Shown in pieces: positions 11,728-30,029 of a DNA stretch of 34,008 bases. The stretch comes from Alphaproteobacteria bacterium (GTDB lineage: Bacteria; Pseudomonadota; Alphaproteobacteria; UBA6615). Made by a program: the position numbers and the translations under genes. Location of the stretch: assembly GCA_028822385.1 (NCBI GenBank), contig JAPKDV010000010.1, positions 1 to 34,008 on the forward strand, written 5' to 3'. Each line of letters begins with the position of its first letter. Position 1 is the stretch's first letter. Below the pieces are notes generated by a model. The model searched no databases. It saw nothing but the letters and a program-made list of their open reading frames with translations, and was not told the origin of the DNA.

Positions 11728-12719
11728 GGTGCGGCCTCGCTTTTGGTTGCGGTCTTGATAAGGGATTCGATTAGTCTTTCTGCCGCGAGTGCATTGGTTC
11801 CGTCGCTTGCCAGCGGTAAACCCTCGACGGACGTGCGATAGACATTGTCGATCATTGCTTCGAACGATCTACCCGCACCGTAGTCCTGCCAGGCCCCTTC
11901 CTCGAGGGTGCGCATGTGAGGCGCATAGCGGTAGCTCAATGTCTTGCGTCGGCGAACGCGTGTGGTCCAGTCCTCGAAGGTGATGGAGCCTGCCTCGGTC
12001 ATGAGTTGGACTTCTAGCAGTCCATAGTCCCGCCCGTCGCCACCAATCAAATGGACCGTAATATCGTCCCTCGCAATTAGCACTGCGTCGAGAGTCGGAT
12101 CGTCGGGGCTGTAATCGAAGCGCGGATTTCCAGCATAGCGGATCACCATTGGGCCGATTAGCATGTGCAGTAAATCGATGACATGACCGCCCGTGTTGCG
12201 GACTCCTCTGGTGTAACGGGCCAGGACCGAACGAATTTGGCCCCATTGCCCGTCGGCGAGTTCGGTGGCTATGTCCTCTACTGCGCGGTGCCAACGGCGG
12301 GTATAGGCTACCCCGAGCGGCTTCCCCGCTTTGGCATAGGCCGCCACGATGCGTTCAGATTCTGCCGTCTGCGTAGTCAGTGGCTTCTCGCAAAGTACCA
12401 ACCCGATATCTGCCTCCAGGAGTTGCCAGAGTAAATCTGCATGATGTTCGGAAGGAGCGCACACGCTGGCGACGTCGAACGTCTGCCCACTATCCAATGC
12501 CTGGGAGAGGGTTGCAAAGGCGTGCGAAGCATAGTCGTTGTCAACGAAGGCGGTGCGTCGGTTCGCATCAGGATCCACGCCCGCGGCGATACGAAATCCT
12601 GAATGCTTTTCGAATGCATCCGCATGGCTCAATGCTTCTTCGCCGAGGTTGGGAAGCCCTACTCCGCCGCCGATGTGGCCGCAGCCAATGATCAGAGTGG
12701 TCAGTGTCTTTTGCGTCAC
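11724..12719 (-). CDS. Gfo/Idh/MocA-family oxidoreductase
   Basis: A 331-residue NAD(P)-dependent dehydrogenase. The N-terminal dinucleotide fold is visible as LIIGCGHIGGG (9-19). CAPSEHHADLL (about 85-95) is the usual segment after the fourth strand, and LCEKPLTT (about 107-114) is the Glu-Lys-Pro motif that binds the nicotinamide and substrate. GGHVIDLLHMLIG (about 174-186) is the catalytic His-Asp-Leu-containing helix. It probably oxidises a nucleotide sugar or cyclitol to its keto form for the DegT enzyme encoded next. ATGA overlaps at its start (with pseF) and GTGA at its end show tight translational coupling. Confidence 0.85.
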   Translation of the reverse strand: MTQKTLTTLIIGCGHIGGGVGLPNLGEEALSHADAFEKHSGFRIAAGVDPDANRRTAFVDNDYASHAFATLSQALDSGQTFDVASVCAPSEHHADLLWQLLEADIGLVLCEKPLTTQTAESERIVAAYAKAGKPLGVAYTRRWHRAVEDIATELADGQWGQIRSVLARYTRGVRNTGGHVIDLLHMLIGPMVIRYAGNPRFDYSPDDPTLDAVLIARDDITVHLIGGDGRDYGLLEVQLMTEAGSITFEDWTTRVRRRKTLSYRYAPHMRTLEEGAWQDYGAGRSFEAMIDNVYRTSVEGLPLASDGTNALAAERLIESLIKTATKSEAAP

Positions 12720-13435
12720 GCTGTGCCCCTGTCTCGGGCGTATGCTTTTAGGCCGAGATAGAGCACTTCGGCCATCGCTAGATCTTCCGGCTCGTTGATG
12801 TCGGTCACCTTGTGGCGGTCGAGGATGTAGGGCGTATAAGTTTCATAGACTCGCACCGATTCGTCCTGCAAATGGGCGGCGGTAAAGACTGCAAACGCGC
12901 CCGCGTCAAAATACTGTGGCAAACAATCTTGTGAGTGGTTGAAGCGAAGATCAGGATGTGCGAAGCGCACGACCGCGTCGTCTCCGATTAGCAGGCCGCG
13001 CTCGACAGGTGCTGGGAAGCTTGCTATCGCAAGCACCGGATGTACGCCGCCGGCCTGGTTCATCGCTTGGTGGCCGTCTATCAAGTCCGAGGCCTCGAGC
13101 AGCGGCGCGGTTGCCATAATCATGCAGATCTCGTCGAATGTCTCGCCGCGCGCCTTATACTGTGCCACGACCCAGCGCAGTACGGCGGGGATGGAGGCGT
13201 GGTTTTGTGCCAGCGCCTTGTCGCGTAGAAATGCGACTGGGTGGCCCTCGTCGGCCGCAACGGATGCATAGTGGGTGCTTTCGGTCGATACGTGAATTTC
13301 GTTGTACATACCTGATTCGCGCGCGGCAGCCAGCGGATAGGTAAGCATGGGTCGACCGCAAAAACTCGTGATGTTCTTGTCGCGAATTCGCGAGCTACCG
13401 CTACGCGCTGGAATGATGGCGAGACGCCGGGTCAT
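12716..13435 (-). CDS. pseF: CMP-pseudaminic acid synthetase-like cytidylyltransferase (PseF type)
   Basis: A 239-residue acylneuraminate cytidylyltransferase. RLAIIPARSGSSRIRDKNIT (3-22) is the CTP-binding signature, FCGRPMLTYPLAAARES follows, and HVSTES and MIMATAPLLEASDLIDG match the substrate region. The PARSGSSRI and FCGRPM forms are typical of PseF. The product would be CMP-pseudaminic acid or a relative. A longer frame upstream (to 13480) exists, but the ATG at 13435 overlaps the TGA of the WbqC gene (ATGA) and sits right before the conserved strand, so I use it. Five other Pse-pathway genes lie in the window, and pseF is separated from pseI by about 5 kb of acyl-modification genes. 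The exact nonulosonic acid is inferred from those companions. Confidence 0.8.
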   Translation of the reverse strand: MTRRLAIIPARSGSSRIRDKNITSFCGRPMLTYPLAAARESGMYNEIHVSTESTHYASVAADEGHPVAFLRDKALAQNHASIPAVLRWVVAQYKARGETFDEICMIMATAPLLEASDLIDGHQAMNQAGGVHPVLAIASFPAPVERGLLIGDDAVVRFAHPDLRFNHSQDCLPQYFDAGAFAVFTAAHLQDESVRVYETYTPYILDRHKVTDINEPEDLAMAEVLYLGLKAYARDRGTA

Positions 13436-14130
13436 TGAATGCCCTGCCGAAGGATTTCGAGCCCTTTGTCGGGCCCACAATTAAACAGGAGGTCGACCGC
13501 ACTCATAAACGGTTGGAATGGGCCGTTTATTTGGTTGTGGATTGGGTGCTTGTAACCGTGATACCTGACGGAAATCCCGGCATCCCGGAAAGCATCACTC
13601 TGGTCTAGATAGTTGGCTGCGCCAGGCGGCGATAAGTATGTGTCCGCGCTTAGCATCTGTGAAATATTGCACAGCAGAATATCTTTCTGACCCGCAGCCG
13701 CGAGCGTTGATGCGCGTACGCAATCTGTGTCGATTACGTATTGGCGGAGTAGCCAGCCAACGACTGTGATGGTGATATTGGCCAGCGACACAGTTGGTGC
13801 GCGGAGTTGGTCGAACAACTCCGGGGCAAACTGCTCGTAGAATGGCGCCTTCGCATAGGCATTCTCAATGCTTCGGATGTGTCTGACGATGAAATTCTGA
13901 TCTGTGTCGACTTCGACTTCGTTGATGTGCTGATTGCGGCGCCCTTTGCTGCGCACAGGGATGGTCAACATTACTTCACCATTAGCGGATTTGATACGAT
14001 TTCGTTGTTGCCAGGACCGACGGTCGAATTGCACATTGTCGAGGAACACGAACTGGTCTACCCGATCTATCATTGCTAGATAGCCCATCCATGGAATATA
14101 GGTTGGCTGCATGATGGCGACCATTGTCAT
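13432..14130 (-). CDS. WbqC-family protein
   Basis: A 232-residue protein of the WbqC-like family, common in O-antigen and flagellin-glycan loci. The signature is visible at the N-terminus: VAIMQPTYIPWMGYLAMIDR (4-23), then FVFLDNVQFDRRSWQQRN (28-45), and LTIPVRSKGRRNQHINEV (about 54-71). The mid-part has AAGQKDILLCNISQML and the C-terminus PGAANYLDQSDAFRDAGI. The biochemical activity of this family is not something I can state firmly; association with unusual acylamino sugars is frequent. Its ATG overlaps the TGA of the beta-propeller gene, and its TGA overlaps the start of pseF. That places it at the step just before nonulosonic acid activation or modification. Confidence 0.8.
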   Translation of the reverse strand: MTMVAIMQPTYIPWMGYLAMIDRVDQFVFLDNVQFDRRSWQQRNRIKSANGEVMLTIPVRSKGRRNQHINEVEVDTDQNFIVRHIRSIENAYAKAPFYEQFAPELFDQLRAPTVSLANITITVVGWLLRQYVIDTDCVRASTLAAAGQKDILLCNISQMLSADTYLSPPGAANYLDQSDAFRDAGISVRYHGYKHPIHNQINGPFQPFMSAVDLLFNCGPDKGLEILRQGIQ

Positions 14131-15059: not shown

Positions 15060-15060
15060 C

Positions 15061-15744
15061 TCAGTCTGCCGATTTAGCGGGTCGCACGAGAAAATCTTCT
15101 TGTCCCGGCTTAAGCTGTAGGGTCTTTGGTTCGGCGGCCATTAGAAGTTGGTGTGCCTTGGTGCTGCGTAGCACCGTCGTTCCGGCGCCGATCACTGAAC
15201 CCTCCGCGATTTCAATGTTCTCTCGGCATGCACTGTTGACGCCGAAGAAACAAGATTCATGGACGCGTACGCCACCTGAGATGACGGCGCCAGATGAAAT
15301 AAAGCAATGGTCGCCGATGGTGGCGTGATGGCCGATCACATTGTTGGACCAGATAATCACGTTGCTGCCGATCACCGCGTTAGGTTGGAAGATTGATTCA
15401 TTGATGAAAACATTCTCGCCATGGACGATTGGTGCCAGAGAACGTGCATGCGGTGACACGAAGCTTGCGAAACCGTAGCCCGCAGCCTTGGAGCGAAGAA
15501 AAGCACTACGGCGGTTTGCATTAGCCTTGCCGTAGCTAAGGGCAACGAACATCGACGCGTCGTCCGGTGGATATTGTTTAGTGATCTCTTCGAACGGCAC
15601 CCTAGGTCGTCCGTTGTGGGTGTCGCCTTCAATATAGTCGGCATCCGAAGTGTACGCGACCACGTCCCAATCTGACTGATGGGTGAAGTGCTCGGCGATT
15701 AGATCTCCCATTACGCCGGTCCCGAATATGATGAGTTTTGCCAT
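15061..15744 (-). CDS. NeuD/PglD-type sugar acyltransferase
   Basis: A 227-residue protein with the two-part NeuD/PglD architecture. The N-terminal Rossmann domain (KLIIFGTGVMGDLIAEHF, 3-20) is followed by a left-handed beta-helix of hexapeptide repeats, seen as NVFINESIFQPNAVIGSNV, IIWSNNVIGHHATIGDHCF and SGAVISGGVRVHESCFFGVN (about 112-172). The GHHATIGDHC segment supplies the histidine that serves as general base in the family. Known members transfer acetyl from acetyl-CoA to a 4-amino sugar or to sialic acid hydroxyls. Here the gene lies six bases after a KAS III-like gene that itself follows an acyl carrier protein gene, so a longer acyl group or an acyl-ACP donor is conceivable (inference). 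Confidence 0.8.
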   Translation of the reverse strand: MAKLIIFGTGVMGDLIAEHFTHQSDWDVVAYTSDADYIEGDTHNGRPRVPFEEITKQYPPDDASMFVALSYGKANANRRSAFLRSKAAGYGFASFVSPHARSLAPIVHGENVFINESIFQPNAVIGSNVIIWSNNVIGHHATIGDHCFISSGAVISGGVRVHESCFFGVNSACRENIEIAEGSVIGAGTTVLRSTKAHQLLMAAEPKTLQLKPGQEDFLVRPAKSAD

Positions 15745-15750
15745 TGCGGT

Positions 15751-16716
15751 TCAGGTTTTGACGATAGTGCCAGCCAGCGAATACCCCACGCCAAATCCCA
15801 TTAACAGGATGTTCATGCCGGGTTGAATTCTGCCAGCGCGGCGCTCGAGCTCGAATGCGATGGGGATCGTTGAGGATACGGTGTTACCAAAATTCTCGAG
15901 GTGGCGAACGACTTTCTCGTTCGGCAATTCGAGCAAGCGGGTCAGATTGTCGAGCACTAGATTGCTTGCCTGATGGAAGATGAACAGATCCACATCATCT
16001 ACGGTGATCAAGGCCTTATCTAGCAGCGCGCGGGTAAATTTTGGGACCTGCCCCATCGTGAAGTGTAAAACTTTGGCGCCGTTCATGTGCAGAGTAGGGG
16101 GAACTTTGTGGGTGTGCGGTGCACTACTTTTAACCAGCTCATTGGGCGCGAGCATCAGATTTTGTGCCCCGTTGCCGTCGGTGGAAAAAATAAAGGGACC
16201 TATCATGCCTGGCCCATCGCAGCTGATCAGGGTTGCGCTCGCGCCGTCTGAGAAGATTGGGCGGCATGCCCTGTCGTCCGGGGCAATATATTTACTGTAG
16301 GTCTCGGCGCAAATCACCAAGCAGTTGCCGATGGCGCCATTCGCGATGAGTGCGGCACCGACGGACAATCCGTACACAAAGCCTGAACAGCCCTGATTGA
16401 GATCGAAGGCGAGAGCTGTCTTGGGTATCCCGCAGGCGGCCTGCAGTGCGCATGCCGTGGCGGGTATTTGAGAATCTGGGGACTGGGTGACATAGATCAG
16501 GCCGGCGACTGTGTCGCGGTCGACGTTTTGTAGGAGTGCCTCCGTTGCGGCCTTGGCCATGGTGAAAGCAGTTTCACCCTCTCCCGTTAGGTGCCGCTGG
16601 CGTACGCCCGTTTTCTCTAAGATCTCGTTGACAAGCCAGTCAGCATTGTCCCGGGACAGTTCTTCGAGCCCTTCGGAGCGGCTACCGAGTACGAAATGTA
16701 TATCTAAAATATTCAC
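15751..16716 (-). CDS. 3-oxoacyl-ACP synthase III (KAS III/FabH) family protein
   Basis: A 321-residue thiolase-fold enzyme. The catalytic triad is complete: Cys110 in FDLNQGCSGFVYGL, His248 in FIFHQASNLVLDNL, and Asn278 in ENFGNTVSSTIP. The C-terminal GFGVGYSLAGTIV matches the Gly-rich closing strand. Classical FabH joins acetyl-CoA to malonyl-ACP. Relatives in special loci make short beta-keto acids or move acyl groups to other acceptors. It follows a dedicated acyl carrier protein gene by 30 bases and precedes a NeuD-type acyltransferase, so it probably builds or transfers the acyl substituent of the sugar rather than serving membrane lipid synthesis. The length is normal, and the N-terminus begins directly with the first core strand. 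Confidence 0.85.
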   Translation of the reverse strand: MNILDIHFVLGSRSEGLEELSRDNADWLVNEILEKTGVRQRHLTGEGETAFTMAKAATEALLQNVDRDTVAGLIYVTQSPDSQIPATACALQAACGIPKTALAFDLNQGCSGFVYGLSVGAALIANGAIGNCLVICAETYSKYIAPDDRACRPIFSDGASATLISCDGPGMIGPFIFSTDGNGAQNLMLAPNELVKSSAPHTHKVPPTLHMNGAKVLHFTMGQVPKFTRALLDKALITVDDVDLFIFHQASNLVLDNLTRLLELPNEKVVRHLENFGNTVSSTIPIAFELERRAGRIQPGMNILLMGFGVGYSLAGTIVKT

Positions 16717-16746
16717 TGTTTTTGCGCGGGTAAGTGTTGGGTACGG

Positions 16747-16986
16747 CTAGCTTAGCAGATCGTTCTTGACCAAGACTTCACAGATTTTTTTGACTGATGT
16801 AGCATCCATGAAGTCGTCGATTTCGGAAATCTTGCCGTTAGCTCGCTCGTCGAGTGCTGTAAGAATGTTGATGTGGGCAAGGGAATCCCAGTCTTGAGCT
16901 GTTTCCACTCCGGTCTCTGGGGTTACCTCTTCGGGATTAATATTCAGCACTTGGCCAATGATTTTATAGACTTCTTGTCGGGTCAT
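16747..16986 (-). CDS. Acyl carrier protein 1
   Basis: A 79-residue protein of the phosphopantetheine-binding family. DWDSLAHINIL (32-42) holds the attachment serine, Ser35, in the canonical Asp-Ser-Leu context. Helix I (EVYKIIGQVLNI) and the acidic loop EEVTPETGVE fit ACPs, and the last helix is SVKKICEVLVKN. The chosen ATG at 16986 has a strong Shine-Dalgarno (GAAGG) nine bases upstream inside the end of the methyltransferase gene. A longer frame reaching back to 17049 would overlap that gene and adds no conserved residues. It is encoded immediately before the KAS III-like enzyme, its likely partner, and differs clearly from the second ACP at 22834-23100. Confidence 0.85.
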   Translation of the reverse strand: MTRQEVYKIIGQVLNINPEEVTPETGVETAQDWDSLAHINILTALDERANGKISEIDDFMDATSVKKICEVLVKNDLLS

Positions 16987-16990
16987 TTGT

Positions 16991-17716
16991 TTAGCCTTCT
17001 TTCGGTTTGCTACATACGTAGAACTCGGTTTGGCACATGACCATCCCAAATTTTCGGGAGAAGTTGATCAGGCCGGCGTCTTTCAACTCATCCAGCCGCT
17101 CAAGGTGCGACGTCATCTCCTCGGGTAAGCGCCAATCCTGACTCGATGCCCTTTCGACTGACCCAAAAATAGTGCGTGCTGTCTTCAAAATACGATCCAC
17201 ACGGGACAGGGAGATTACCGGAACATATAGAGAGCCCCCGGTCGCTAGGTGTTTGGGGGCGGCCTTGATTACGGCACAGGTCAGCGCCGTACCGTCGTCG
17301 CCAGATGCGCAAGGTATTGTTTCACCAAACCACGGTGACAATTTTGCTACTTCCTCTGCGATGCCTGATACGTCGTCGACAATTGTGTCGAACTTCATCC
17401 CGTCCCAAGGTTCGAACATGCTACCCGCCCGAGCGTCACAGTCAATATTGTGAGCGGCGCAGTTTTCCTGCGTTAATGCGACAGCAATATTTGATAGATC
17501 GGATGCGAACAAGGGGTTGTTTACGAAACCGAGTTTGGCAAGTGCTATGCCGACCACCCCGCAGCCACAACCGAGATCGAGTACCCGTCCTGGAGCCGGA
17601 TCTTGCTTACGCACCGCCGCGACGCAGAGCGTGCTAGTATGGGTCGGTACAAAAACACCTGGCGCCGTTGCCAAATCGAGGGCGGTACCCTCATTAAGTT
17701 CGAACGTATAACTCAC
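16991..17716 (-). CDS. Class I SAM-dependent methyltransferase (small-domain, RsmC/PrmC-like fold)
   Basis: A 241-residue protein. GRVLDLGCGCGVVGIALAKL (about 43-62) is motif I for SAM binding, and LFASDLSNIAVALTQENCAA is motif II with the acidic ribose-binding residue. Where PrmC/RsmC enzymes have the NPPY motif this protein has VDDVSGIAEEV, so a glutamine or guanine N-methyltransferase role is unlikely and a small-molecule or acyl-ACP substrate fits better (inference). I place the start at GTG 17716, with AGGTGA just upstream, 17 bases after the oxygenase stop. The longer frame to 17818 would overlap that gene by 85 bases. The next gene is acyl carrier protein 1, four bases on. Confidence 0.7.
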   Translation of the reverse strand: MSYTFELNEGTALDLATAPGVFVPTHTSTLCVAAVRKQDPAPGRVLDLGCGCGVVGIALAKLGFVNNPLFASDLSNIAVALTQENCAAHNIDCDARAGSMFEPWDGMKFDTIVDDVSGIAEEVAKLSPWFGETIPCASGDDGTALTCAVIKAAPKHLATGGSLYVPVISLSRVDRILKTARTIFGSVERASSQDWRLPEEMTSHLERLDELKDAGLINFSRKFGMVMCQTEFYVCSKPKEG

Positions 17717-17733
17717 GTGATCACCTGTTAGAA

Positions 17734-18456
17734 CTAGTAATAGGGTAGAACCATCGTCCAGCGCCCGGCTTGGTGTGTCCAGTCGAGCTGTTCGTTGGCG
17801 TCGATGGGAGTGATCCAATGCGGAAGATCATATCGGAAGAGGATTATGTCCCCCATATCATGGGTGTCTTCGAAGCTGTAGTCAGTGTTGTCGACCCTAA
17901 AAATGGTGCCACCATTGTTGAAGTCGCGGCCCTTTTCCGAAAGCCCCACAATTAGTCCAACGCGTTGCGGCTCAAGAGGGTGAACATGTTTGCCGAAGAA
18001 ACCGCCACCACTCGGATATTGAATCACTTGCGGTCGCATTAATCGACCCGCCGGGTCGGGCTCGAAACCGGCGTTGGTTTTGGCGACCGCATTTTGCAGG
18101 TCGCGCATGGCGGTGAAAACCGGGCGAATCAGCGTATCCATCTCTGCGTCAATCGCACCGGGACATAGTTGAAAATTGTGCGAGTGAAACGTGTGCGGCG
18201 TCTGCGATTTTACGGGGCGTTCGTCGATCCTATGAGAACTAGTTTCCGCTTCGCGCTGGGGCGCGGTTGTCTGTCCCCAGGCGAAGACTCCGTCGAGAAT
18301 TCCGCGCAGAAGGTCTGCTGGAAATGCACCTTTCAGAAGTGCGAGCCCGTCGCGCACGACGAGGTCTCCGATCTCTTGCGCGGGGACGGCTGTGCTGATT
18401 GAGGCTCCGTCATATGAGGCGTCGATGATCGTAATTCCAGGCACGATCTCACTCAT
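17734..18456 (-). CDS. Fe(II)/2-oxoglutarate oxygenase-like protein
   Basis: A 240-residue protein predicted to have a double-stranded beta-helix. GGGFFGKHVHPLEPQRVGLI (160-179) aligns with the metal-binding strand of 2-oxoglutarate oxygenases. His167 and His169 are the candidate ligands, but the usual HxD aspartate is not obvious. NGGTIFRV follows, DMGDIILFRYDLPHWITPI (200-218) gives the distal histidine, His213, and QAGRWTMVLPYY may bind the co-substrate carboxylate. The departure from HxD means it could use a different ligand set or be inactive as an oxygenase. The start ATG at 18456 overlaps the TGA of the small upstream gene (ATGA), and a longer frame to 18528 is rejected. Position before a methyltransferase and an ACP suggests tailoring of an acyl or sugar unit. 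Confidence 0.55.
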   Translation of the reverse strand: MSEIVPGITIIDASYDGASISTAVPAQEIGDLVVRDGLALLKGAFPADLLRGILDGVFAWGQTTAPQREAETSSHRIDERPVKSQTPHTFHSHNFQLCPGAIDAEMDTLIRPVFTAMRDLQNAVAKTNAGFEPDPAGRLMRPQVIQYPSGGGFFGKHVHPLEPQRVGLIVGLSEKGRDFNNGGTIFRVDNTDYSFEDTHDMGDIILFRYDLPHWITPIDANEQLDWTHQAGRWTMVLPYY

Positions 18457-18692
18457 AGTGGATATCCATGCGCGCACAGATCGAGGGTATGGACTTCGGT
18501 AAATCGAGCCGCTATGTCGGGGGCGCAATAGTCAAAATCCTCATCGGGTGCCAGACCATTGATCAATAGGGTCTCTTCTGGACGAGCAAAGAGCCGGCTG
18601 ACATTTGCGATTGCCGGCATATTAGAGAACACCTGCACCTGATAGTGTCGTTGAGACTGTCTCGGAAAAGCTGATATGGATGATTCCATCAT
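18453..18692 (-). CDS. Hypothetical 79-aa protein
   Basis: A short protein with no recognised domain, no membrane segment and no signal peptide. It begins MMESSISAFPRQSQRHYQVQ, has a mixed strand-helix middle (VFSNMPAIANVSRLFARPEE) and ends in CAHGYPL with two cysteines in the last third. Both ends overlap neighbours by ATGA: its start with the stop of pseI and its stop with the start of the oxygenase-like gene. That double coupling is the main reason to treat it as real. It may be an accessory subunit for one of its neighbours, but nothing in the sequence says which. Confidence 0.55.
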   Translation of the reverse strand: MMESSISAFPRQSQRHYQVQVFSNMPAIANVSRLFARPEETLLINGLAPDEDFDYCAPDIAARFTEVHTLDLCAHGYPL

Positions 18693-19708
18693 GGACGAAG
18701 ATTGTCCCAGGTCAGCGGAGTACCCGCCGCGATGGCGTGCGTAGCGTGCATGCCGGTAGCGGCGTCGAGATGGCGCGCGCGAAGTCCTATTGCGGGGCGT
18801 TGGATCTTAATATCCTCTGCCGTCAGAACAGTCCCGTCTGATATGTCGCGTGCCGCGTAAAGTCCGTTACGTCGACCATGTTCGCGTTCGGACGGCAGCA
18901 TTTCTTTCTGCGCAGTGCCTAGTGCCTCATAAACATCCTTGGCGTCTGCGATGAGTTGTTTGAGTTCATTGGGTTCCAGAGCATAGAAATGATCCGGACC
19001 CTTGGCCTCGCGACTATGGGTGAAGTGCTTTTCTATCACGTGCGCGCCGCGCGCGACCGCTGCCAGCGTGATATGGGTGCCAAGCGAATGGTCGGAGAAG
19101 CCAACCGGCGCATCAAACACGTCACGAAATAAATCCATCACGCGAAGGTTCACATGCTCAACCGGGAGCGGGTACATCGCTCCGCACTGCAGAAGGGCAA
19201 CTTGCCTATTTCCTCTCGCCAAGCACCGTGCAACTGCTTCCTGAACGTCAACTAGGTCGCACATGCCTGTAGAGAGGAACAGGGGCTTTCCTGTCGCTGC
19301 GATCTGGTCGAGTAGTGGTAAGTTAGTCGTTTCCGACGATGCAATTTTGTGAACTGCAACGTCGATCGATTCTAGAACTGCAAGAGATTGGGTGTCGAAA
19401 GCTGAAGCCATGAATGTCAGATTTCGAGCGGCCGCATGCTCGGCGAGTTTCGGAACCCAGTCCGGGTTGAGTTCGACGGCCTTGAATGCGGCATGTATTG
19501 CCCCCCTGTCAGGGTATAGCGCATCCGCGCGGAAAAGCTGGAACTTCACGGCGTCAGCGCCGGCTTCGGCCGCGATGTCGATCAGGCGCCGTCCCGTGTC
19601 TAGGTCTTGATCGAAATTAGACCCAGCCTCGGCTATAAAGTAGGGACGTTCGGTGGCACCAATCTGTGCCGGCCCGACGGCGAACGTGGGTTGCAGTTTT
19701 TCAGTCAT
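18689..19708 (-). CDS. pseI: Pseudaminic acid synthase-like NeuB-family enzyme (PseI type)
   Basis: A 339-residue full-length nonulosonic acid synthase that condenses phosphoenolpyruvate with a 6-deoxy diacetamido-hexose. The barrel has YFIAEAGSNFDQDLDTG (23-39), AGADAVKFQLFRADALY, FLSTGMCDLVDVQEAV, GFSDHSLGTH and IEKHFTHSREAKGPDHFYAL, which includes the two metal histidines. The final 60 residues (RRNGLYAARDISDGTVLTAE onward, ending LTWDNLRP) form the SAF/antifreeze-like domain missing from the second synthase at 2759-3610. Most members have Asn-His-Asn-Gln where this one has Asn-Phe-Asp-Gln, a small departure near the active site. It directly follows pseG and overlaps it by eight bases. Confidence 0.88.
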   Translation of the reverse strand: MTEKLQPTFAVGPAQIGATERPYFIAEAGSNFDQDLDTGRRLIDIAAEAGADAVKFQLFRADALYPDRGAIHAAFKAVELNPDWVPKLAEHAAARNLTFMASAFDTQSLAVLESIDVAVHKIASSETTNLPLLDQIAATGKPLFLSTGMCDLVDVQEAVARCLARGNRQVALLQCGAMYPLPVEHVNLRVMDLFRDVFDAPVGFSDHSLGTHITLAAVARGAHVIEKHFTHSREAKGPDHFYALEPNELKQLIADAKDVYEALGTAQKEMLPSEREHGRRNGLYAARDISDGTVLTAEDIKIQRPAIGLRARHLDAATGMHATHAIAAGTPLTWDNLRP

Positions 19709-20771
19709 CTAGTAACTCCAGCAATCGTTGTGATCCCTTGCCGTCGACTAAAGCCCGTCCTGCCGAAGACATGGCCTGCTGCCGTTTTGGGTTGGTCAAC
19801 AGGATTTTGACCTGAATGGCTAGGCCGTCCGGCGTCAAACCATTCTTTAGGCCCGCGTCTAAACAGGTTCCTAACTTCGCAAAAGGTCGGTTTGCGTGAT
19901 GATGATGGTCGTCGATTGAAACTAGAATGCACGGTGTGCCCGCATGCGCTAATTCATATTTTGTTAGTCCGCTCGCCGACAATGCGAGATCGGCTCTAAG
20001 TATTTCGTCAGCGAGGTTCTCGGGGGCCCTAATAAGGGTCGTGTTGTGCGCGAGCTCTCTGGCACGATTTTCTATCTCTGATTTGAGCGCATCTGGAAAT
20101 CCGGGGCCGATAACGATGCGTAATGCTAGCGGGGCATCGATCTGTGCCAAGGCTGCGAGAAAAAGAAGGGTCAGGCCGGTTGGATCGCTGCCGCCGGCAG
20201 TCACCAGAACGCGACGGGACGAGTCGTTCTTGGATTTGACACCCGACGACGGTGGGCGGAAGGCCTGATTGACGACAAAGTATTCCGCGCCGCGCGCTTC
20301 TTTGTCCGGCCCGGGGAGCACGTTCTGATGCTCGGCGCCAATATAGGGAATAGCGAGTATGTCGACGGCTAGGCCGTGCCGCGCGGCGAGGCAGTTGTGT
20401 CCGATTGAATCGATGACGAGAGTACGGGTTCCGGCATCGTGCACCTGTTTTAGCATTCTTGCCACTTCGCTCGCCGTTCCGGCAGTCGTTGCATGGGAAA
20501 AATCGAAGATGGCTCGGGTTGCGCCGCGCAAAGTCGCTGACGCGTCAAAACGCTGGGGGGTGTCGAGTTGGCGAGCGTCATGGCCGGCTTTGCTGATCTT
20601 GTCGAGCACATCGAAATCAGAGATACCAAGCACGATCTCTGGCATGCCGCCGCGCGCCTGAATAGCGTCTGCCAGGCTGATGCACCGGTTCACGTGACCG
20701 AAGCCCAGGTCTCCTCCCCCGTCGGTGCGCAGAATGTAGCTGCTTGCCAGAGTATCAATCCTCCGCGCCAT
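19701..20771 (-). CDS. pseG: PseG-like UDP-sugar hydrolase
   Basis: A 356-residue GT-B-fold protein expected to cleave UDP from the UDP-diacetamido-trideoxy-altrose intermediate. ILRTDGGGDLGFGHVNRCIS (13-32) is the PseG signature, with the catalytic histidine at position 26. The C-terminal half has VLVTAGGSDPTGLTLLFLAA, LIRAPENLADEILRADLALS and SASGLTKYELAHAGTPCI, matching the nucleotide-binding half. The start at ATG 20771 overlaps the end of the acyl ligase gene by 17 bases; the frame is open far upstream but without conserved sequence. A GGAGG a few codons inside this ATG precedes a CTG, so a slightly shorter form is possible. It sits between the acyl ligase and pseI in the expected pathway order. 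Confidence 0.85.
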   Translation of the reverse strand: MARRIDTLASSYILRTDGGGDLGFGHVNRCISLADAIQARGGMPEIVLGISDFDVLDKISKAGHDARQLDTPQRFDASATLRGATRAIFDFSHATTAGTASEVARMLKQVHDAGTRTLVIDSIGHNCLAARHGLAVDILAIPYIGAEHQNVLPGPDKEARGAEYFVVNQAFRPPSSGVKSKNDSSRRVLVTAGGSDPTGLTLLFLAALAQIDAPLALRIVIGPGFPDALKSEIENRARELAHNTTLIRAPENLADEILRADLALSASGLTKYELAHAGTPCILVSIDDHHHHANRPFAKLGTCLDAGLKNGLTPDGLAIQVKILLTNPKRQQAMSSAGRALVDGKGSQRLLELLDD

Positions 20772-22206
20772 CGAGACAGTAAGCCGCGACCACGTCACGG
20801 TTGATTTTCCCGCGATCGGTCTTTGGCACTTCTTTGACGATAAACCAGTGGACTGGGATCTTCTCGCGTGACAGACGTTCAGCGCACCAACGACGGATCT
20901 GGCGTTCGTCAAACTTCGCTCCGGCCTGGAGGGCGAGTGCCACTCCCACGGTTTCGCCCTCGGTTGCGTGAGGAACTGCAAAGGTACAGGCTTCAGATAC
21001 AATCTCGTGGCGTTCTAGGAGTAGGTCCACATCCTCTGGGTGGACCTTCAATCCACCCCGGTTAATTAGGTAACGTTCGCGCCCCGTGAGATAGGCCATG
21101 CCTTCGGCATCGATTCGGCCGATATCTCCAGTGTGGAACCATCCATCGCGCAAGACCTCATCGGTCTTTTCCGGCAATTGATAATAGCATTTCATCAGGC
21201 TGGGCGATTGGACTATCAGTTCGCCTTCGCCCTCAGCCGCGATGTTTCCTTCGGCGTTACGCACTGCAATGTTGCCACCCCACATCGTGCCTATCAACCC
21301 ATCCGCGGCATCCCGTTCCGAAAGCGCCACCCCGGCTAGCCAGTTCGCGGTCTCGGTTATTCCATACATGTTAAAGACTTGGTCCGTTTGTGCCCATTCG
21401 CCGATGGCGGTCCACAGATCGGCCGACAGCGGCGCTGATCCCACATGTACGCGCCGGAGCGTATCATCGGTGGGGGGCTTAGCTTCGTTAGTCACACGTT
21501 TCCATAAGGCGGGAACCGAACTCATGAAGCTAATCTTGTGCTCATCAATGATCGAGCCAAGATTGGCCGGAACATCAAGATTGCTAGCTGGTGCGAGGAA
21601 GAGATCCTGACCGTCGAGCAATGCTGTGAGGCAGTTCCCGATTAGACCGTGACCAAAATGTGTGGGCAGCACGCACAATGTTCGCATACGGTGGCCGCGG
21701 GGAATATACGCTTGGTTAAGAGCCACCCGCGCCAGCAGTGAACGGAAAGTATGAACTACACCCTTCGGTGTACCTGTTGTCCCCGAGGTAAATAAAATTA
21801 GTGCGTCGTCGTCAAGATGTCCGCTTCCAAGTATGCGTTCGCTGGATATGGGCGCTATTGATTCGGAGGAAATCGCCAGCGCACCCAGCGTCTCGGGGAT
21901 GCGGTCGCAGTTGCGATCTATAATTGCGGCTGGTTTCACAAAATCCGCAATCGTTTGGAGTTCGGAAGCTGTGGTGTTCGGGTTAAGTCCGACAGCGCAT
22001 GCCCCAACCTGCCAGATGGCGAACAGGTCGGCGAAAAACCGACCGTCACCCCCATGCCAAGTTATGACGCGGCTACCTGGCCTGATGCCAAGGCGGGTGA
22101 GTTCCGCTGCCAAGCCGTTAGTTTGTGCTCGAATCTGTGCGGCGGACCAGGTTTCGCCGCTGCGCCAGTCGGTAACTGCACCCAGTTTGTCGAGGAACAA
22201 GCGCAT
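20755..22206 (-). CDS. AMP-dependent acyl ligase (acyl-CoA or acyl-ACP synthetase family)
   Basis: A 483-residue ANL-superfamily enzyme that would activate a carboxylic acid as acyl-AMP and pass it to CoA or a carrier protein. ILFTSGTTGTPKGVVHTF (137-154) is the P-loop-like A3 motif, and VFNMYGITETANW is the A5 motif. GWFHTGDIGRIDAEGMAYLT and GRERYLINRGGLKVHPEDVD are the A7/A8 hinge, and PKTDRGKINRD carries the catalytic lysine, Lys467. No carrier or condensation domain is fused. The N-terminus is shorter than in most acyl-CoA ligases (about 500-560). It lies between the PseH-like gene (one-base overlap) and pseG, with a free ACP gene just upstream. The likely job is supplying an acyl group for the sugar; the acid is unknown. 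Confidence 0.85.
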   Translation of the reverse strand: MRLFLDKLGAVTDWRSGETWSAAQIRAQTNGLAAELTRLGIRPGSRVITWHGGDGRFFADLFAIWQVGACAVGLNPNTTASELQTIADFVKPAAIIDRNCDRIPETLGALAISSESIAPISSERILGSGHLDDDALILFTSGTTGTPKGVVHTFRSLLARVALNQAYIPRGHRMRTLCVLPTHFGHGLIGNCLTALLDGQDLFLAPASNLDVPANLGSIIDEHKISFMSSVPALWKRVTNEAKPPTDDTLRRVHVGSAPLSADLWTAIGEWAQTDQVFNMYGITETANWLAGVALSERDAADGLIGTMWGGNIAVRNAEGNIAAEGEGELIVQSPSLMKCYYQLPEKTDEVLRDGWFHTGDIGRIDAEGMAYLTGRERYLINRGGLKVHPEDVDLLLERHEIVSEACTFAVPHATEGETVGVALALQAGAKFDERQIRRWCAERLSREKIPVHWFIVKEVPKTDRGKINRDVVAAYCLDGAED

Positions 22207-22847
22207 CAGCTGGGCTCAGCATTGGAGGACTGCGACGCAATGTCCGGTACCCAAGCAATAGTTTCGCGAAGCTCTGGATGAGCGTCGTAGAATTCGCTGG
22301 GGAAGACGCCAAAGCGTAATATGTCTACTCGCTTGCCTTGGAAGATTGCCTGACTACGAAATTTGGCTTCGAGTTGAGCTCCGAGGCTTGTTGATTTAAA
22401 GGTCGAAGCTCGGTGCGGTGCGATGTTGCCCATCACGAACTTGGTTAGGCCAAGAGCTTGAAACCCGAAATGGATCGCCTGCGAATCTGCGTCAGCGATA
22501 ATGCCGCGGCCCCAATATGCGCGCTCGCCAATAAGATTGGATAGATCGGCTATCCCCGCTTCAGCATCGATTATGTGCAGCAGCACATTGCCAATATGGA
22601 TGTTTTTATCGTTGGTGAAGATACCCAAGAGCAGACGATCAGTGGACGCGTTGGCGCTGTCGAGGTAGGCGAACAGATCTTTCTTAACAAAACTGAGATT
22701 GTGCCGTGAAGTAAATTCGTTGATCTCTGGGTCGTTTAGCCATTTTAGGTAACGTGGACCGATATCCTCGGGAGAAAGCGGCCGCAGCCAGACTTTGGCG
22801 CCGCGTATTCGCAGTGCCGCCCCTCCACACGTTTCAAGTAGCGTCAT
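22206..22847 (-). CDS. pseH: GNAT N-acyltransferase, PseH-like
   Basis: A 213-residue acyl-CoA-dependent N-acyltransferase. VWLRPLSPEDIGPRYLKWLN opens the family fold, HIGNVLLHIIDAEAGIADLS and NLIGERAYWGRGIIADADSQ (about 100-140) form the central sheet and the pyrophosphate-binding Gly-Arg-Gly loop, and FGFQALGLTKFVMGNIAPHR follows. PseH acetylates the 4-amino group made by PseC, and its place right after pseC and an ACP gene agrees with this. The C-terminal extension past the core (VFPSEFYDAHPELRE) is common in this subgroup. The ATG at 22847 is preferred over TTG at 22853. It overlaps the end of the ACP gene by about 14 bases. Whether the donor is acetyl-CoA or an acyl-ACP is open. Confidence 0.75.
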   Translation of the reverse strand: MTLLETCGGAALRIRGAKVWLRPLSPEDIGPRYLKWLNDPEINEFTSRHNLSFVKKDLFAYLDSANASTDRLLLGIFTNDKNIHIGNVLLHIIDAEAGIADLSNLIGERAYWGRGIIADADSQAIHFGFQALGLTKFVMGNIAPHRASTFKSTSLGAQLEAKFRSQAIFQGKRVDILRFGVFPSEFYDAHPELRETIAWVPDIASQSSNAEPS

Positions 22848-23100
22848 TGCCAACTCGCAGTCGCTCGACCATTACACACATGGCATCCACAGTGCGGAAA
22901 TTATCTGGCCTGATGTCCTCGTCGGGAATATTTAGATCGAAATTGCCTTCAATGAACGTGATTAATTCCAAGATACTGTAGGAATCGACTATCTCGTTGC
23001 GCACAAGTTCGGTATCGCTCTCAATCGGTACGACGGGGCGGTAGTTCGAATTGATGAACGCAATCAAGGTTGCGTTGTTGCCCGGGCAACAACTATTCAT
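22834..23100 (-). CDS. Acyl carrier protein 2
   Basis: An 88-residue phosphopantetheine-carrier-like protein. IVDSYSILELITFIEGNFDL (37-56) matches the start of helix II, with Ser40 in an Asp-Ser-Tyr context instead of the usual Asp-Ser-Leu. IPDEDIRPDNFRTVDAMCVM corresponds to the loop and last helix. Helix I (NATLIAFINSNY) is preceded by a short Cys-containing lead (MNSCCPG). The start at ATG 23100 overlaps the TGA of pseC (ATGA); a frame extending back to 23259 is a shadow of pseC. Lying between pseC and the PseH-like gene, upstream of a stand-alone acyl ligase, it is the likely acceptor of the acyl group activated by that ligase. Confidence 0.75.
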   Translation of the reverse strand: MNSCCPGNNATLIAFINSNYRPVVPIESDTELVRNEIVDSYSILELITFIEGNFDLNIPDEDIRPDNFRTVDAMCVMVERLRVGNDAT

Positions 23101-24335
23101 TGTGCAGTTCCTAGAATATCCGCAATCGCGTCGACGACACGATCGACATCGCTTTCTTCCATCTTTGGAAAGAGAGGCAGAGAGAGGCAGCGTGAGTAGT
23201 AGGCGGCCACTCCGGGAAGATTTGGTTTGCCGTAACGCTCGGTGTAATAAGGCTGCCATGGCACCGGTGTATAATGGACTTGGGTTCCGATCCCTCGGTC
23301 ACGCAACGCTCTCATGAATGCACCGCGCTCGATCCCCAGTGCCTCGAAATCGATCAGCGTAACATAGAGATGCCACGCCGGCCGACATTGAGCGGTGCGC
23401 GCAAGCCCGCGCACTGTCGGCGCAAATGCGGCGAGCCGCTGATCGTAGTGTTCGGCCAGTTTGCGCCGTTGCTCGACGAATCGGTCCAGCTTCCCCAGCT
23501 GGCTCAGTCCCAGCGCACAGTGTATCCCGCTGGCACGGTAATTGAGCCCTGGTTCATGCATTTCGTAGTACCAAGGTTGTGGGAGGCCTGATGCGTCGAA
23601 GGCGAGATCGTTGCGCTTATACTTTGTGGGATCGCGGGTCATGCCGTGATTGCGTAATTCGCGCAAGCGCGAGGCTAGTCGGTCGTCGTTAGTTGTAATT
23701 GCACCACCTTCGCCCATGGCAATAGTTTTGACTGGGTGGAACGAGAATGTTGCCATGTCACCATGGGCGCATGCGCCGATAGCATGGGACTTGCCGTCTG
23801 CGCTATAGCTCGTACCTAGCGCGTGGCAGGCATCCTCGATAATCGTCAAACCATGTTTATCAGCGAAGACGCTGTAATCTTCCATCGCGTCGCATTGTCC
23901 TGCAAAATGCACAGGCAGGACTGCCCGCACCCGACTATCGCCGGCTAGGCTTAGCGCTGACGCTGCATGCTCAGCGCTCATCAGTCCGCTTTCTGGGTCG
24001 ACATCTGCGAATAGGACTTTTGCACCACAAATCTGTGCCGCGTTCGCTGATGCGAGGAACGTGTTTGCTGGCACAATGACGGCATCACCTGGGCCGATGT
24101 CTGCGGCCATCACAGCCAAATGTAGGGCAGCAGTTCCGCTGCTGCATGCCACGGCATGGCGCGCGCCAACGCGTGCGGCAAAGGCTGCCTCGAATTGCTC
24201 GACGACTGGACCCTGCGTAAGCCAATCGCTGCGCAACACCTTGACCACGGCCTCAATGTCATCTTCCTCGATGAGCTGGCGGCCATAGGGTAGAGGGTCG
24301 TTGTTGGTGGGGTTTTTGCTGATCTGATTTTCCAT
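23097..24335 (-). CDS. pseC: PseC-like UDP-4-keto-sugar aminotransferase
   Basis: A 412-residue DegT/DnrJ-type aminotransferase. LPYGRQLIEEDDIEAVVKVL (15-34) and SDWLTQGPVVEQFE (36-49) are the usual PseC opening, and ACSSGTAALHLAVMA binds PLP phosphate. IIEDACHALG (165-174) gives Asp168 and TFSFHPVKTIAMGEGG (196-211) gives Lys203, the Schiff-base lysine. The family aminates the 4-keto product of PseB using glutamate. A clear Shine-Dalgarno (GGAG) lies nine bases before the ATG, inside a possible hairpin. It is the first structural gene after the NusG-like gene. Its partner pseB is not next to it but about 5 kb away beyond a plus-strand operon. Confidence 0.87.
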   Translation of the reverse strand: MENQISKNPTNNDPLPYGRQLIEEDDIEAVVKVLRSDWLTQGPVVEQFEAAFAARVGARHAVACSSGTAALHLAVMAADIGPGDAVIVPANTFLASANAAQICGAKVLFADVDPESGLMSAEHAASALSLAGDSRVRAVLPVHFAGQCDAMEDYSVFADKHGLTIIEDACHALGTSYSADGKSHAIGACAHGDMATFSFHPVKTIAMGEGGAITTNDDRLASRLRELRNHGMTRDPTKYKRNDLAFDASGLPQPWYYEMHEPGLNYRASGIHCALGLSQLGKLDRFVEQRRKLAEHYDQRLAAFAPTVRGLARTAQCRPAWHLYVTLIDFEALGIERGAFMRALRDRGIGTQVHYTPVPWQPYYTERYGKPNLPGVAAYYSRCLSLPLFPKMEESDVDRVVDAIADILGTAQ

Positions 24336-24398: not shown

Positions 24399-24902
24399 TC
24401 AGTCGTAGGTGCTGACGAGTTCTCCTGGTATTTTCACTCGAACCTGCCGCCCGAGCAAGTCGAGCAACAGGACGACCCTGTCGGAATCGTCCATGGTGGC
24501 GAACTGGCCGATTTTGTTAATCAGTGCGCCCGACAAAATCTGTAGCCGGTCGCCCGGCCGGAATTTTTTCTCGCGCTCAAGGTCGACTAGGCCCTCCGCG
24601 TTTTCTCGTGTCGATATTTCCTCCACGACCCCTTCCGGCAAAGGCATCGGCATTTCGTTCGTCCCGACCATATGCGATACGCCGACCGTCGAATAGATGG
24701 CGCGCCAGCGTTCGCGCTCGAGATCGAGGCGCACAAATAGGTAGCGCGGAAATAGTGGGCGTCGTACATGAGTGAGCTTCCGAGCGTGTCGCCGCCGGCG
24801 CAGATATTGGGGCAGATAGGTCCGAAAGTCTTGGCGCAAGAGGTTTGCGAGCGCGGTTTGCTCGCCGTTTGGCCGAGTGTGGACGACGTACCAGTGATCC
24901 AT
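24399..24902 (-). CDS. NusG/RfaH-like specialised transcription antiterminator
   Basis: A 167-residue NusG-family protein. The NGN domain is seen as WYVVHTRPNGEQTALANLLR (4-23), FRTYLPQYLRRR (26-37) and RRPLFPRYLFVRLDLERERW (47-66), with YSTVGVSHMVGTN behind it. The KOW-type C-terminal domain starts at KFRPGDRLQILSGALINKIG (112-131). The size and the PLFPRYLFV motif fit RfaH- and UpxY-type paralogues, not housekeeping NusG, which would sit with secE. Such proteins ride on RNA polymerase and suppress pausing and termination over long polysaccharide operons. It directly follows the regulator gene (TGA then ATG, no gap) and precedes more than 24 kb of same-strand genes, its likely target. Confidence 0.88.
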   Translation of the reverse strand: MDHWYVVHTRPNGEQTALANLLRQDFRTYLPQYLRRRRHARKLTHVRRPLFPRYLFVRLDLERERWRAIYSTVGVSHMVGTNEMPMPLPEGVVEEISTRENAEGLVDLEREKKFRPGDRLQILSGALINKIGQFATMDDSDRVVLLLDLLGRQVRVKIPGELVSTYD

Positions 24903-25520
24903 TCAGCTCCCCCGTTTTGGCGGGACGATGCGCAGTAAGGGCAACGGCAGGACACGCTCATTTGCGAAGGTGTTGATTAACTGCTCGTAGGTTGCCTGTG
25001 GCGAAACCACGTCGGTCACCACTACGGCATCAATGCCGCTCAGCATGTCTAAATCACCGATTACGCGCCGCCCTGCAAACTCGGCATAGATGTCGTCGAA
25101 CCCGATGATATTCTCGACCTTGATGGGAAAATCTCGCGCCGAGAGTAGGGCTATCTCGCACAACTCGCCGGGGCCTGCGAGTGCGACGCGGGTCCAGCCG
25201 CGCAGCGCGCAGCGCTCGAAGCTATCCGAGCACTGAGCTTTGGCGTCGCGGAAAAAGGAGAGCGAATCAGATAGATATTCGGCCGTCAGCCGAGCCTTTT
25301 CGGCGAATCCCTTTGGCGTAAGATAGTAGGCGTAGCGACGCGCTGGTGCGCGGCGGACCTTGACATGGCCCTTGTTGATGCACCGGCGCAGATAGGCATT
25401 CGCCAATCCAAGGGCTATTCCCAGCTCGTCAGCCAGATTGCGCTGGGTAACGTTGCTGCTCTCATGCACGGCGTTCAGGACGCCCAGCGTTACGATTGGG
25501 GCTTGATGTTTACGGTCCAT
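24903..25520 (-). CDS. Winged-helix regulator with a C-terminal Rossmann-like domain
   Basis: A 205-residue protein. Residues 10-70 form a winged helix-turn-helix: TLGVLNAVHESSNVTQRNLA, then DELGIALGLANAYLRRCINK as the recognition helix, and the wing VKVRRAPARRYAYYLTPKGF. Residues 108-200 look like a Rossmann or CoA-binding-like domain: TRVALAGPGELCEIALLSA, VENIIGFDDIYAEFAGRRVI, DAVVVTDVVSPQATYEQLI. It is longer than the small MarR-type regulators usually found before polysaccharide operons because of this second domain, which might sense a nucleotide, NAD(H) or a pathway intermediate (inference). Inverted repeats lie 21-56 bases upstream of its start, suggesting it controls its own operon. 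It is translated just before the NusG-like protein. Confidence 0.75.
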   Translation of the reverse strand: MDRKHQAPIVTLGVLNAVHESSNVTQRNLADELGIALGLANAYLRRCINKGHVKVRRAPARRYAYYLTPKGFAEKARLTAEYLSDSLSFFRDAKAQCSDSFERCALRGWTRVALAGPGELCEIALLSARDFPIKVENIIGFDDIYAEFAGRRVIGDLDMLSGIDAVVVTDVVSPQATYEQLINTFANERVLPLPLLRIVPPKRGS

Positions 25521-29015: not shown

Positions 29016-30029
29016 TTAGATTTGGTCGAGAAGCTTGACCAGTCCGTCCCTGTCGAGCCATTCCTCGTTCGTGTTACTCGCATAGTGAAAATCAGAAGGC
29101 GCGACGACGGCGCCTTCTGCTTCGTGCGAGGCCTGAACACTGGGGTCCTGTGCGGGGCAGATGACGTAGCGCCCGTCGCGCTCCACGACCGCGGCTGTGT
29201 CGTCCTCTGATATTAATAACTCGTGTAGCTTCTCACCGGGGCGAATGCCGACGACCTGACGCGGGATGCCTGGTGCGAGGGCTTCCATCATGTCGACGAC
29301 AGTCATACTGGGAACCTTCGGAACGAAGATTTCCCCACCCTTCATTAATTTTGCACTGGAAAGGACAAAATTAATTCCTTGGTCCAGTGTTATCCAGAAA
29401 CGGGTCATCCGATCATCAGTCAGGGGGATGCTATCACATCCCTCTTCCACAAGTCGTCGGATTAGGGGCACGATACTCCCGCGCGACCCAAGCACATTCC
29501 CGTAGCGCACAACGCTGAACCGGGTTGCTGAATCACCGGCGAGGGTGTTGGCAGCGATGAAGAGTTTATCCGACGCTAGCTTACTTGCTCCGTAGATGTT
29601 GATTGGGTTGACCGCTTTGTCCGTCGACAGGGCAATAACTTTTTCGACGCCAACATCAATCGCGGCGCTGATAACATTTTCGGCGCCGTAAACATTTGTT
29701 CGGATGCATTCGAATGGATTGTATTCGGCGGCTGGCACATGTTTAAGGGCCGCTGCGTGGATTACACAGTCAACGCCTCGCATAGCCATGCGGAGTCGAT
29801 CGACGTCGCGAACATCACCTAGAAAGTAGCGCAATTCTTCGCGATCCGCGAAGGCCGCCGACTGCTGCATGTCGTATTGCTTGTGTTCGTCGCGCGATAG
29901 GATGATCAGCTTGCGCAACTTGTAGCGCTTGAGCAGCGTTTCGGAAAACTGGCGGCCAAAGGAGCCGGTACCGCCTGTTATCAGGACGGTTTTTCCGTTG
30001 AAATCAATCGTGCTGTTTGTATTGGACAT
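29016..30029 (-). CDS. pseB: PseB-like UDP-GlcNAc 4,6-dehydratase (inverting)
   Basis: A 337-residue short-chain dehydrogenase-type enzyme that starts pseudaminic acid synthesis by 4,6-dehydration and C5 inversion of UDP-GlcNAc. KTVLITGGTGSFGRQFSETL (13-32) is the NADP-binding loop, and LSRDEHKQYDMQQ, FLGDVRDVDRL and HAAALKHVPAAEYNPFECIR are PseB/CapD signatures. STDKAVNPINIYGASKLASDK holds the Lys and Tyr-x-x-x-Lys catalytic residues, with Asp/Lys replacing the usual Ser-Tyr-Lys threonine pattern as in this family. A Shine-Dalgarno (AAGGA) precedes the ATG. It is set apart from the other pse genes by a convergent plus-strand operon. The 144 bases upstream contain no convincing promoter or further gene. 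Confidence 0.88.
   Translation of the reverse strand: MSNTNSTIDFNGKTVLITGGTGSFGRQFSETLLKRYKLRKLIILSRDEHKQYDMQQSAAFADREELRYFLGDVRDVDRLRMAMRGVDCVIHAAALKHVPAAEYNPFECIRTNVYGAENVISAAIDVGVEKVIALSTDKAVNPINIYGASKLASDKLFIAANTLAGDSATRFSVVRYGNVLGSRGSIVPLIRRLVEEGCDSIPLTDDRMTRFWITLDQGINFVLSSAKLMKGGEIFVPKVPSMTVVDMMEALAPGIPRQVVGIRPGEKLHELLISEDDTAAVVERDGRYVICPAQDPSVQASHEAEGAVVAPSDFHYASNTNEEWLDRDGLVKLLDQI
29093..29119. other. Perfect 10-bp inverted repeat inside the 3' end of pseB
   Basis: CAGAAGGCGC and GCGCCTTCTG flank a seven-base loop. The repeat lies within pseB codons for EGAVVAPSD and about 87 bases beyond the stop of the convergent plus-strand methyltransferase gene. It is not followed by a T-run on the plus strand and only by ATTTTC on the minus strand, so it is not a textbook terminator, but it is the strongest hairpin near this convergent junction. 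Confidence 0.55.

Follow-up and report, generated by a model that had tools for sequence, protein, structure and literature searches.

The canonical pseudaminic acid pathway of Campylobacter and Helicobacter leads through the enzymes PseBCHGIF to CMP-Pse5Ac7Ac, and PseH of Helicobacter pylori binds acetyl-coenzyme A (CoA) (PMC4363471). Here we describe a pse-type gene cluster on a 34,008-nucleotide stretch of DNA from an uncultured alphaproteobacterium (assembly GCA_028822385.1, contig JAPKDV010000010.1), which was analysed at its full length and is called the window below. In this cluster, genes for a free acyl carrier protein (ACP2), a GNAT N-acyltransferase and an acyl-AMP ligase lie between pseC and pseG. 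The locus resembles the canonical pathway in that PseB and PseC pass their family models, the order of steps is kept and a GNAT stands between PseC and PseG. It differs in that this GNAT is not a PseH by model, the PseG-, PseI- and PseF-like enzymes score below their cut-offs, and a carrier and a ligase are added.

The general kind of arrangement is already known, as carriers or AMP-synthetases beside amino-sugar genes have been published for Pseudomonas and Aeromonas. For the modified-viosamine island of Pseudomonas syringae (vioA, vioB, vioS, vioR and acp), a dedicated carrier supplying the 3-hydroxybutyryl N-acyl group of the amino sugar was proposed from mutant mass spectrometry (PMC3927599). 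As proposed here for the window, a dedicated carrier would there serve a non-acetyl N-acyl group on a 4-amino-6-deoxy sugar, but KAS III and a reductase assemble the acyl chain without an AMP ligase, and the sugar is dTDP-viosamine instead of pseudaminic acid. In the group II flagella glycosylation islands of Aeromonas, genes for an ACP (orf1) and an AMP-dependent synthetase (orf3) come immediately after pseH; a 376-Da pseudaminic derivative is present in A. piscicola AH-3, and the authors suggested a liposugar as the possible product (PMC7874193). Unlike the window, these islands also contain genes for a 3-oxoacyl-ACP reductase, luxE and luxC, and their likeness to it is one of gene annotation. 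Enterobacterial flagellin glycosylation islands carry carriers and fatty-acid CoA ligases (PMC4875605). A variable 7-N-acyl group, as proposed here, is found in Shigella boydii type 7, where the acyl group of 7-N-3-hydroxybutanoyl pseudaminic acid was attributed to the acyltransferase Psb5 and the accessible part of the report describes no dedicated carrier or ligase (PMC3628348).

Two further candidates were discarded as precedents. Rhizobial rkpN and rkpO do not encode a carrier and a ligase, RkpN being the counterpart of PseF and RkpO that of PseG (PMC7591256), and the rkp-3 regions of Rm41 and NGR234 contained no match to carrier or ligase models. In Yersinia ruckeri O1, the carrier and the AMP-synthetase have locus tags apart from the legionaminic acid cluster (PMC5552943). 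Neither an overlapping carrier–GNAT–ligase run between pseC and pseG nor a portable module of this type was found in the literature, a weak negative since subscription journals were mostly uncovered.

Stand-alone adenylating enzymes paired with free carriers are familiar from PigI/PigG, DltA/DltC and AsbC/AsbD. The carriers PigG, AsbD and AmcB resemble ACP2, but the window differs in having a ligase nearest to oxalyl-, malonyl- and feruloyl-CoA ligases and a GNAT as the transferase.

A carrier, a GNAT and an acyl-AMP ligase between pseC and pseG

Six genes on the minus strand, in the order pseC–ACP2–GNAT–ligase–pseG–pseI, span positions 24335–18689 of the window, and each overlaps the next. 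The gene of the 4-aminotransferase PseC (23097..24335), the predicted source of the acceptor amine, shares an ATGA overlap with that of ACP2 (22834..23100), which in turn overlaps the GNAT gene (22206..22847) by 14 nt. GNAT and ligase (20755..22206) genes are joined by TGATG with a 1-nt overlap, followed by overlaps of 17 nt between the ligase gene and that of the PseG-like UDP-sugar hydrolase (19701..20771), and of 8 nt between the latter and the gene of the PseI-like nonulosonate synthase (18689..19708). A preliminary description, made from the sequence alone, had placed carrier, GNAT and ligase between pseC and pseG with overlapping ends; coordinates and order hold.

On balance, we slightly favour the explanation that a dedicated carrier donates an acyl group other than acetyl to the 4-amine of the pseudaminic-type sugar produced by this operon, the nitrogen that becomes N-7 once the sugar is complete. 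Using ATP, the ligase would adenylate one particular carboxylic acid, and the acyl group would then move from the adenylate onto the Ser40-bound pantetheine arm of ACP2. The GNAT would dock acyl-ACP2 and acylate the 4-amine of UDP-4-amino-4,6-dideoxy-AltNAc, the product of PseB and PseC, and the PseG-, PseI- and PseF-like enzymes would carry the N-acyl intermediate through to the CMP-sugar. As putative acid-activating, carrier and amine-acylating genes occur together within a pse operon, the sugar probably bears a non-acetyl acyl group. We infer the PseC product as acceptor, as did the preliminary description, from gene order and translational overlap; the proposal gained further from a search of the window genome, a 90% complete draft, in which no other GNAT of this family was found. 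The acyl group itself is not readable from the sequence.

The motifs of the carrier and of the ligase are intact, in agreement with the preliminary description. ACP2 (88 aa) has the phosphopantetheine serine, Ser40, in the DS motif VDSYS, and profile matches assign it a carrier fold. Although neither PF00550 nor any other Pfam model matched ACP2, its homologue in a related genome (G006, see below) passes PF00550, and ACP2 itself matches NCBIfam models of AmcB/AsbD-type carriers as well as stand-alone carriers of the PigG/PltL type in the PDB (E about 2e-6). By these matches it resembles the type of carrier that is served by stand-alone adenylating enzymes, PigG above all.

The ligase (483 aa) is a class I adenylate-forming enzyme by its matches to PF00501 (E 5.6e-57) and PF13193 and by the presence of all core motifs: A3 (TSGTTGTPKG), A5 (YGITE), A7 (TGD), A8 (GRERYLINRGGLKVHP) and A10 with its catalytic lysine (PKTDRGK). 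Its fold matches feruloyl-, oxalyl- and malonyl-CoA ligases. The pocket segments THFGHGLIGN, SSVPxxWK, GSAPLS and ITETxNWxxG are near-invariant across 17 ligases of the family, which suggests that all members activate the same acid or close analogues of it.

The GNAT (213 aa) matches PF13302 (E 2.3e-13), and its AlphaFold model is confident (pLDDT 93) with a RimL/SpeG-type fold. Its earlier label 'PseH-like' proved loose: the PseH model TIGR03585 gave no match to it even at E<=10, while the rkp-3 GNAT of Sinorhizobium meliloti Rm41, used as positive control, scored 151.6 against a cut-off of 93.1. Tyr138 has been proposed as the general acid of H. pylori PseH, and MccE and RimL have a serine at the equivalent place (PMC4363471). 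Motif alignment puts Ser152 of the window GNAT at this position, and the enzyme thus looks catalytic.

A recurrent ligase–GNAT–carrier module in Alphaproteobacteria

Of 385 alphaproteobacterial genomes searched with a ligase profile, 14 contain the family. In eleven of these 14, the ligase, a related GNAT and a carrier of about 80 aa are encoded side by side, across unrelated families and mostly outside pse operons, and a phylum-wide search added one trio, in genome G440. Ligase and carrier occur together in G342 and G288. The recurrence of ligase, GNAT and carrier as a portable module supports the view that the three work jointly, and in this respect the preliminary description, which had read them as one activating, loading and transferring unit, was strengthened.

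Ligase identity between the window and the 16 others ranges from 36% to about 64%, and from 36 to 54% beyond the close relatives. The usual cassette order is ligase-GNAT-ACP, whereas the window has ACP-GNAT-ligase, and the carrier motif is WDSL in the cassettes, VDSYS in ACP2 and VIDSF in G006. Cassette GNATs form one supported clade with the window GNAT beside and not within it; a branch with support 93/95 has window-type and cassette GNATs together on one side. A plasmid search with the ligase (tblastn) returned distant acyl ligases only (<=31%).

Some neighbours of the module were recorded. In G288, the carrier beside the ligase is fused to a domain of the methylisocitrate-lyase/phosphoenolpyruvate (PEP)-mutase type with a KQCGH motif (L083, 10737-11885); the domain family was assigned via the homologue in G342, where carrier and PEP-mutase/isocitrate-lyase-type domain are separate neighbours (L089, 9928-10999). 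This domain beside the carrier may give a clue to the biosynthesis of the acid. In genomes of genus g51 without NeuB, ATP-grasp genes lie directly upstream of ligase-GNAT-carrier (L085, 7874-9058; L088, 7470-8633).

A broader proposal, which we put forward only tentatively, is that a portable N-acylation cassette circulates in Alphaproteobacteria beside amine-producing pathways, that it was here built into a pse operon, giving a carrier-fed, non-acetyl N-7 acyl group, and that one acid may be common to all loci.

Gain and loss of carrier and ligase among close relatives

PseC, ligase and PseG genes are adjacent in the relatives G006 and G004, and PseC and ligase genes in G021, where the contig ends after the ligase; ligase identity to the window is 63-65%. 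The neighbours in G004 and G021 are only partly visible because of contig ends in these drafts, while those in G006 are fully visible. In G006 (ligase 63%), carrier (33%) and GNAT (51%) genes are adjacent to each other about 10 kb upstream, and in G021 the GNAT gene is on a separate contig. The flanks of the G006 locus are conserved (86-94% on the PseB side, 75-90% on the NeuB2/CMP side) and its interior is swapped relative to the window (L010, L051, L052). The replaced interior includes a formyltransferase gene beside the carrier-GNAT pair. A search of genome contigs for related loci with the ligase alignment returned the same three relatives only, and the nearest named relatives of the window are alphaproteobacterial metagenome-assembled genomes; the corresponding search with the GNAT found nothing.

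The cluster of G017 matches that of the window in almost every gene (PseI 75% identical, later genes 73-83%), with PseC-GNAT-PseG only. In G018, an aspartate-aminotransferase-like gene occupies the ligase position between GNAT and pseG (L012, 5415-6689). The window GNAT clusters with the GNATs of G006, G021, G017 and G018 with support 100/100, and an approximately unbiased test of carrier-linked window-type GNATs as a monophyletic group gave p=0.25. Gain or loss of carrier and ligase as a pair, with the GNAT retained, fits a switch of acyl donor; equally, it cautions that GNATs of this clade can function carrier-free.

Competing explanations for the acyl donor and acceptor

Several observations weigh against acylation from a dedicated carrier. 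In G017 and G018, GNATs of the same clade lie between pseC and pseG with neither carrier nor ligase, from which we conclude that this clade, the window GNAT included, can probably also work from CoA. The window GNAT retains the CoA pyrophosphate loop RAYWGRG (R109–115, R/QxxGxG type), and the closest solved relatives of the ligase produce CoA esters. The rhizobial rkp-3 region likewise has a GNAT without such a carrier or ligase, so that a special acyl group there, if present, would not need them. Nine of the 14 ligase genomes of the class lack NeuB, as does G440, and the ligase is not associated with PseC (5/14 versus 106/371 genomes, Fisher p=0.56), which makes the trio an independent unit and not a standard part of pseudaminic acid synthesis. 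In genome G302, a pse cluster combines ligase-GNAT-carrier with a PseG that has a C-terminal GNAT domain (L077, 3524-5032), and this is the strongest individual case for a separate target in that genome. Loop, G017/G018 and G302 together weaken the simple activate-load-transfer reading. In favour of a dedicated carrier, GNAT/carrier (r=0.76) and ligase/GNAT (r=0.58) distances are correlated across 13 trios (both Mantel p=0.0002), as are ligase/carrier distances with r=0.36 (p=0.05), but these values may partly reflect organism relatedness or shared ancestry, and a large part of the GNAT/carrier correlation probably stems from the split between two carrier types.

If the ligase were a CoA ligase, the GNAT could use an unusual acyl-CoA on the PseC product, ACP2 being accessory or belonging to another step. 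The retained CoA loop, the carrier-free sister clusters and the feruloyl-, oxalyl- and malonyl-CoA ligases as closest solved relatives speak for this possibility, which we nevertheless regard as unlikely: in nearly all trios, ligase and GNAT are found with a carrier, ACP and GNAT genes are adjacent in G006 though the ligase gene is 10 kb off, and ACP2 belongs with the carriers that stand-alone adenylating enzymes load. It likewise seems improbable that the GNAT is an ordinary acetyl-CoA-dependent PseH and that ACP2 and ligase acylate another amine or a hydroxyl of the glycan. Such a division of labour would agree with the GNATs of G017 and G018, with the arrangement in G302 and with the other acyl chemistry encoded in the window (ACP1, KAS III and a NeuD-like transferase), yet ACP2, GNAT and ligase genes are interleaved in a single overlapping run, the homologous trio recurs in genomes without PseC, and the GNAT fails the PseH model. 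Chance neighbourhood or a decaying insertion without joint function, which the sister clusters lacking ACP2 and ligase might suggest, is already very unlikely given intact motifs, overlapping starts and stops, a PseC-ligase-PseG order kept at about 64% ligase identity, and the recurrence of the trio.

Acylation of the PseC product from ACP2 would also involve the later enzymes of the pathway. PseB, a UDP-GlcNAc 4,6-dehydratase (inverting; 29016..30029, minus strand), and PseC exceed the curated equivalog cut-offs (TIGR03589, 485.5 bits, cut-off 407.75; TIGR03588, 484.9 bits, cut-off 423.5). The PseG-like (TIGR03590, 106.2 bits, cut-off 153.55) and PseI-like enzymes (NeuB and SAF domains, PF03102/PF08666; TIGR03586, 263.2 bits, cut-off 340.25) and the PseF-like CMP-nonulosonate synthetase (12716..13480, minus strand; TIGR03584, 184.3 bits, cut-off 205.7) are related and sub-threshold. 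As part of the favoured explanation, and with the same modest confidence, these three may have drifted away from the diacetyl-specific families. Against this, the cut-offs are also missed by PseG of G017 and G018 and by PseI of G017, in genomes without the ligase, and the drift is thus not ligase-specific.

Other features of the locus

The window belongs to a 2.43-Mb draft genome of 233 contigs (G000:C195) and holds a locus for a surface glycan. Genes of an RfaH-like antiterminator and a MarR-type exopolysaccharide (EPS) regulator (24399-25520) immediately upstream of pseC likely control the long operon. A second acyl module (13432-18465) encodes ACP1 (16986-16747), a KAS III (16716-15751) with an apparently intact Cys-His-Asn triad, a NeuD-like acetyltransferase, a methyltransferase and WbqC, together with a gene (18465-17734) that has no family match. 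This module is retained at 73-83% identity in G017, itself without ACP2 and ligase. A second nonulosonate synthase without SAF domain (2759-3610) adjoins a second CMP-sugar synthetase (2038-2739); this pair is about 88-90% identical in G006 despite the different interior of the locus there and therefore looks like a fixed part of it.

Biological significance

The N-acyl groups of pseudaminic acids vary and alter surface recognition, and the genes that decide on the acyl group are mostly unknown. If the proposed mechanism is true, a ligase and a carrier in the operon would make the acyl group predictable from the genes, and the three proteins would form a small, testable set. As the trio also occurs in genomes without a nonulosonic acid synthase, its substrate would give a recurrent module a function.

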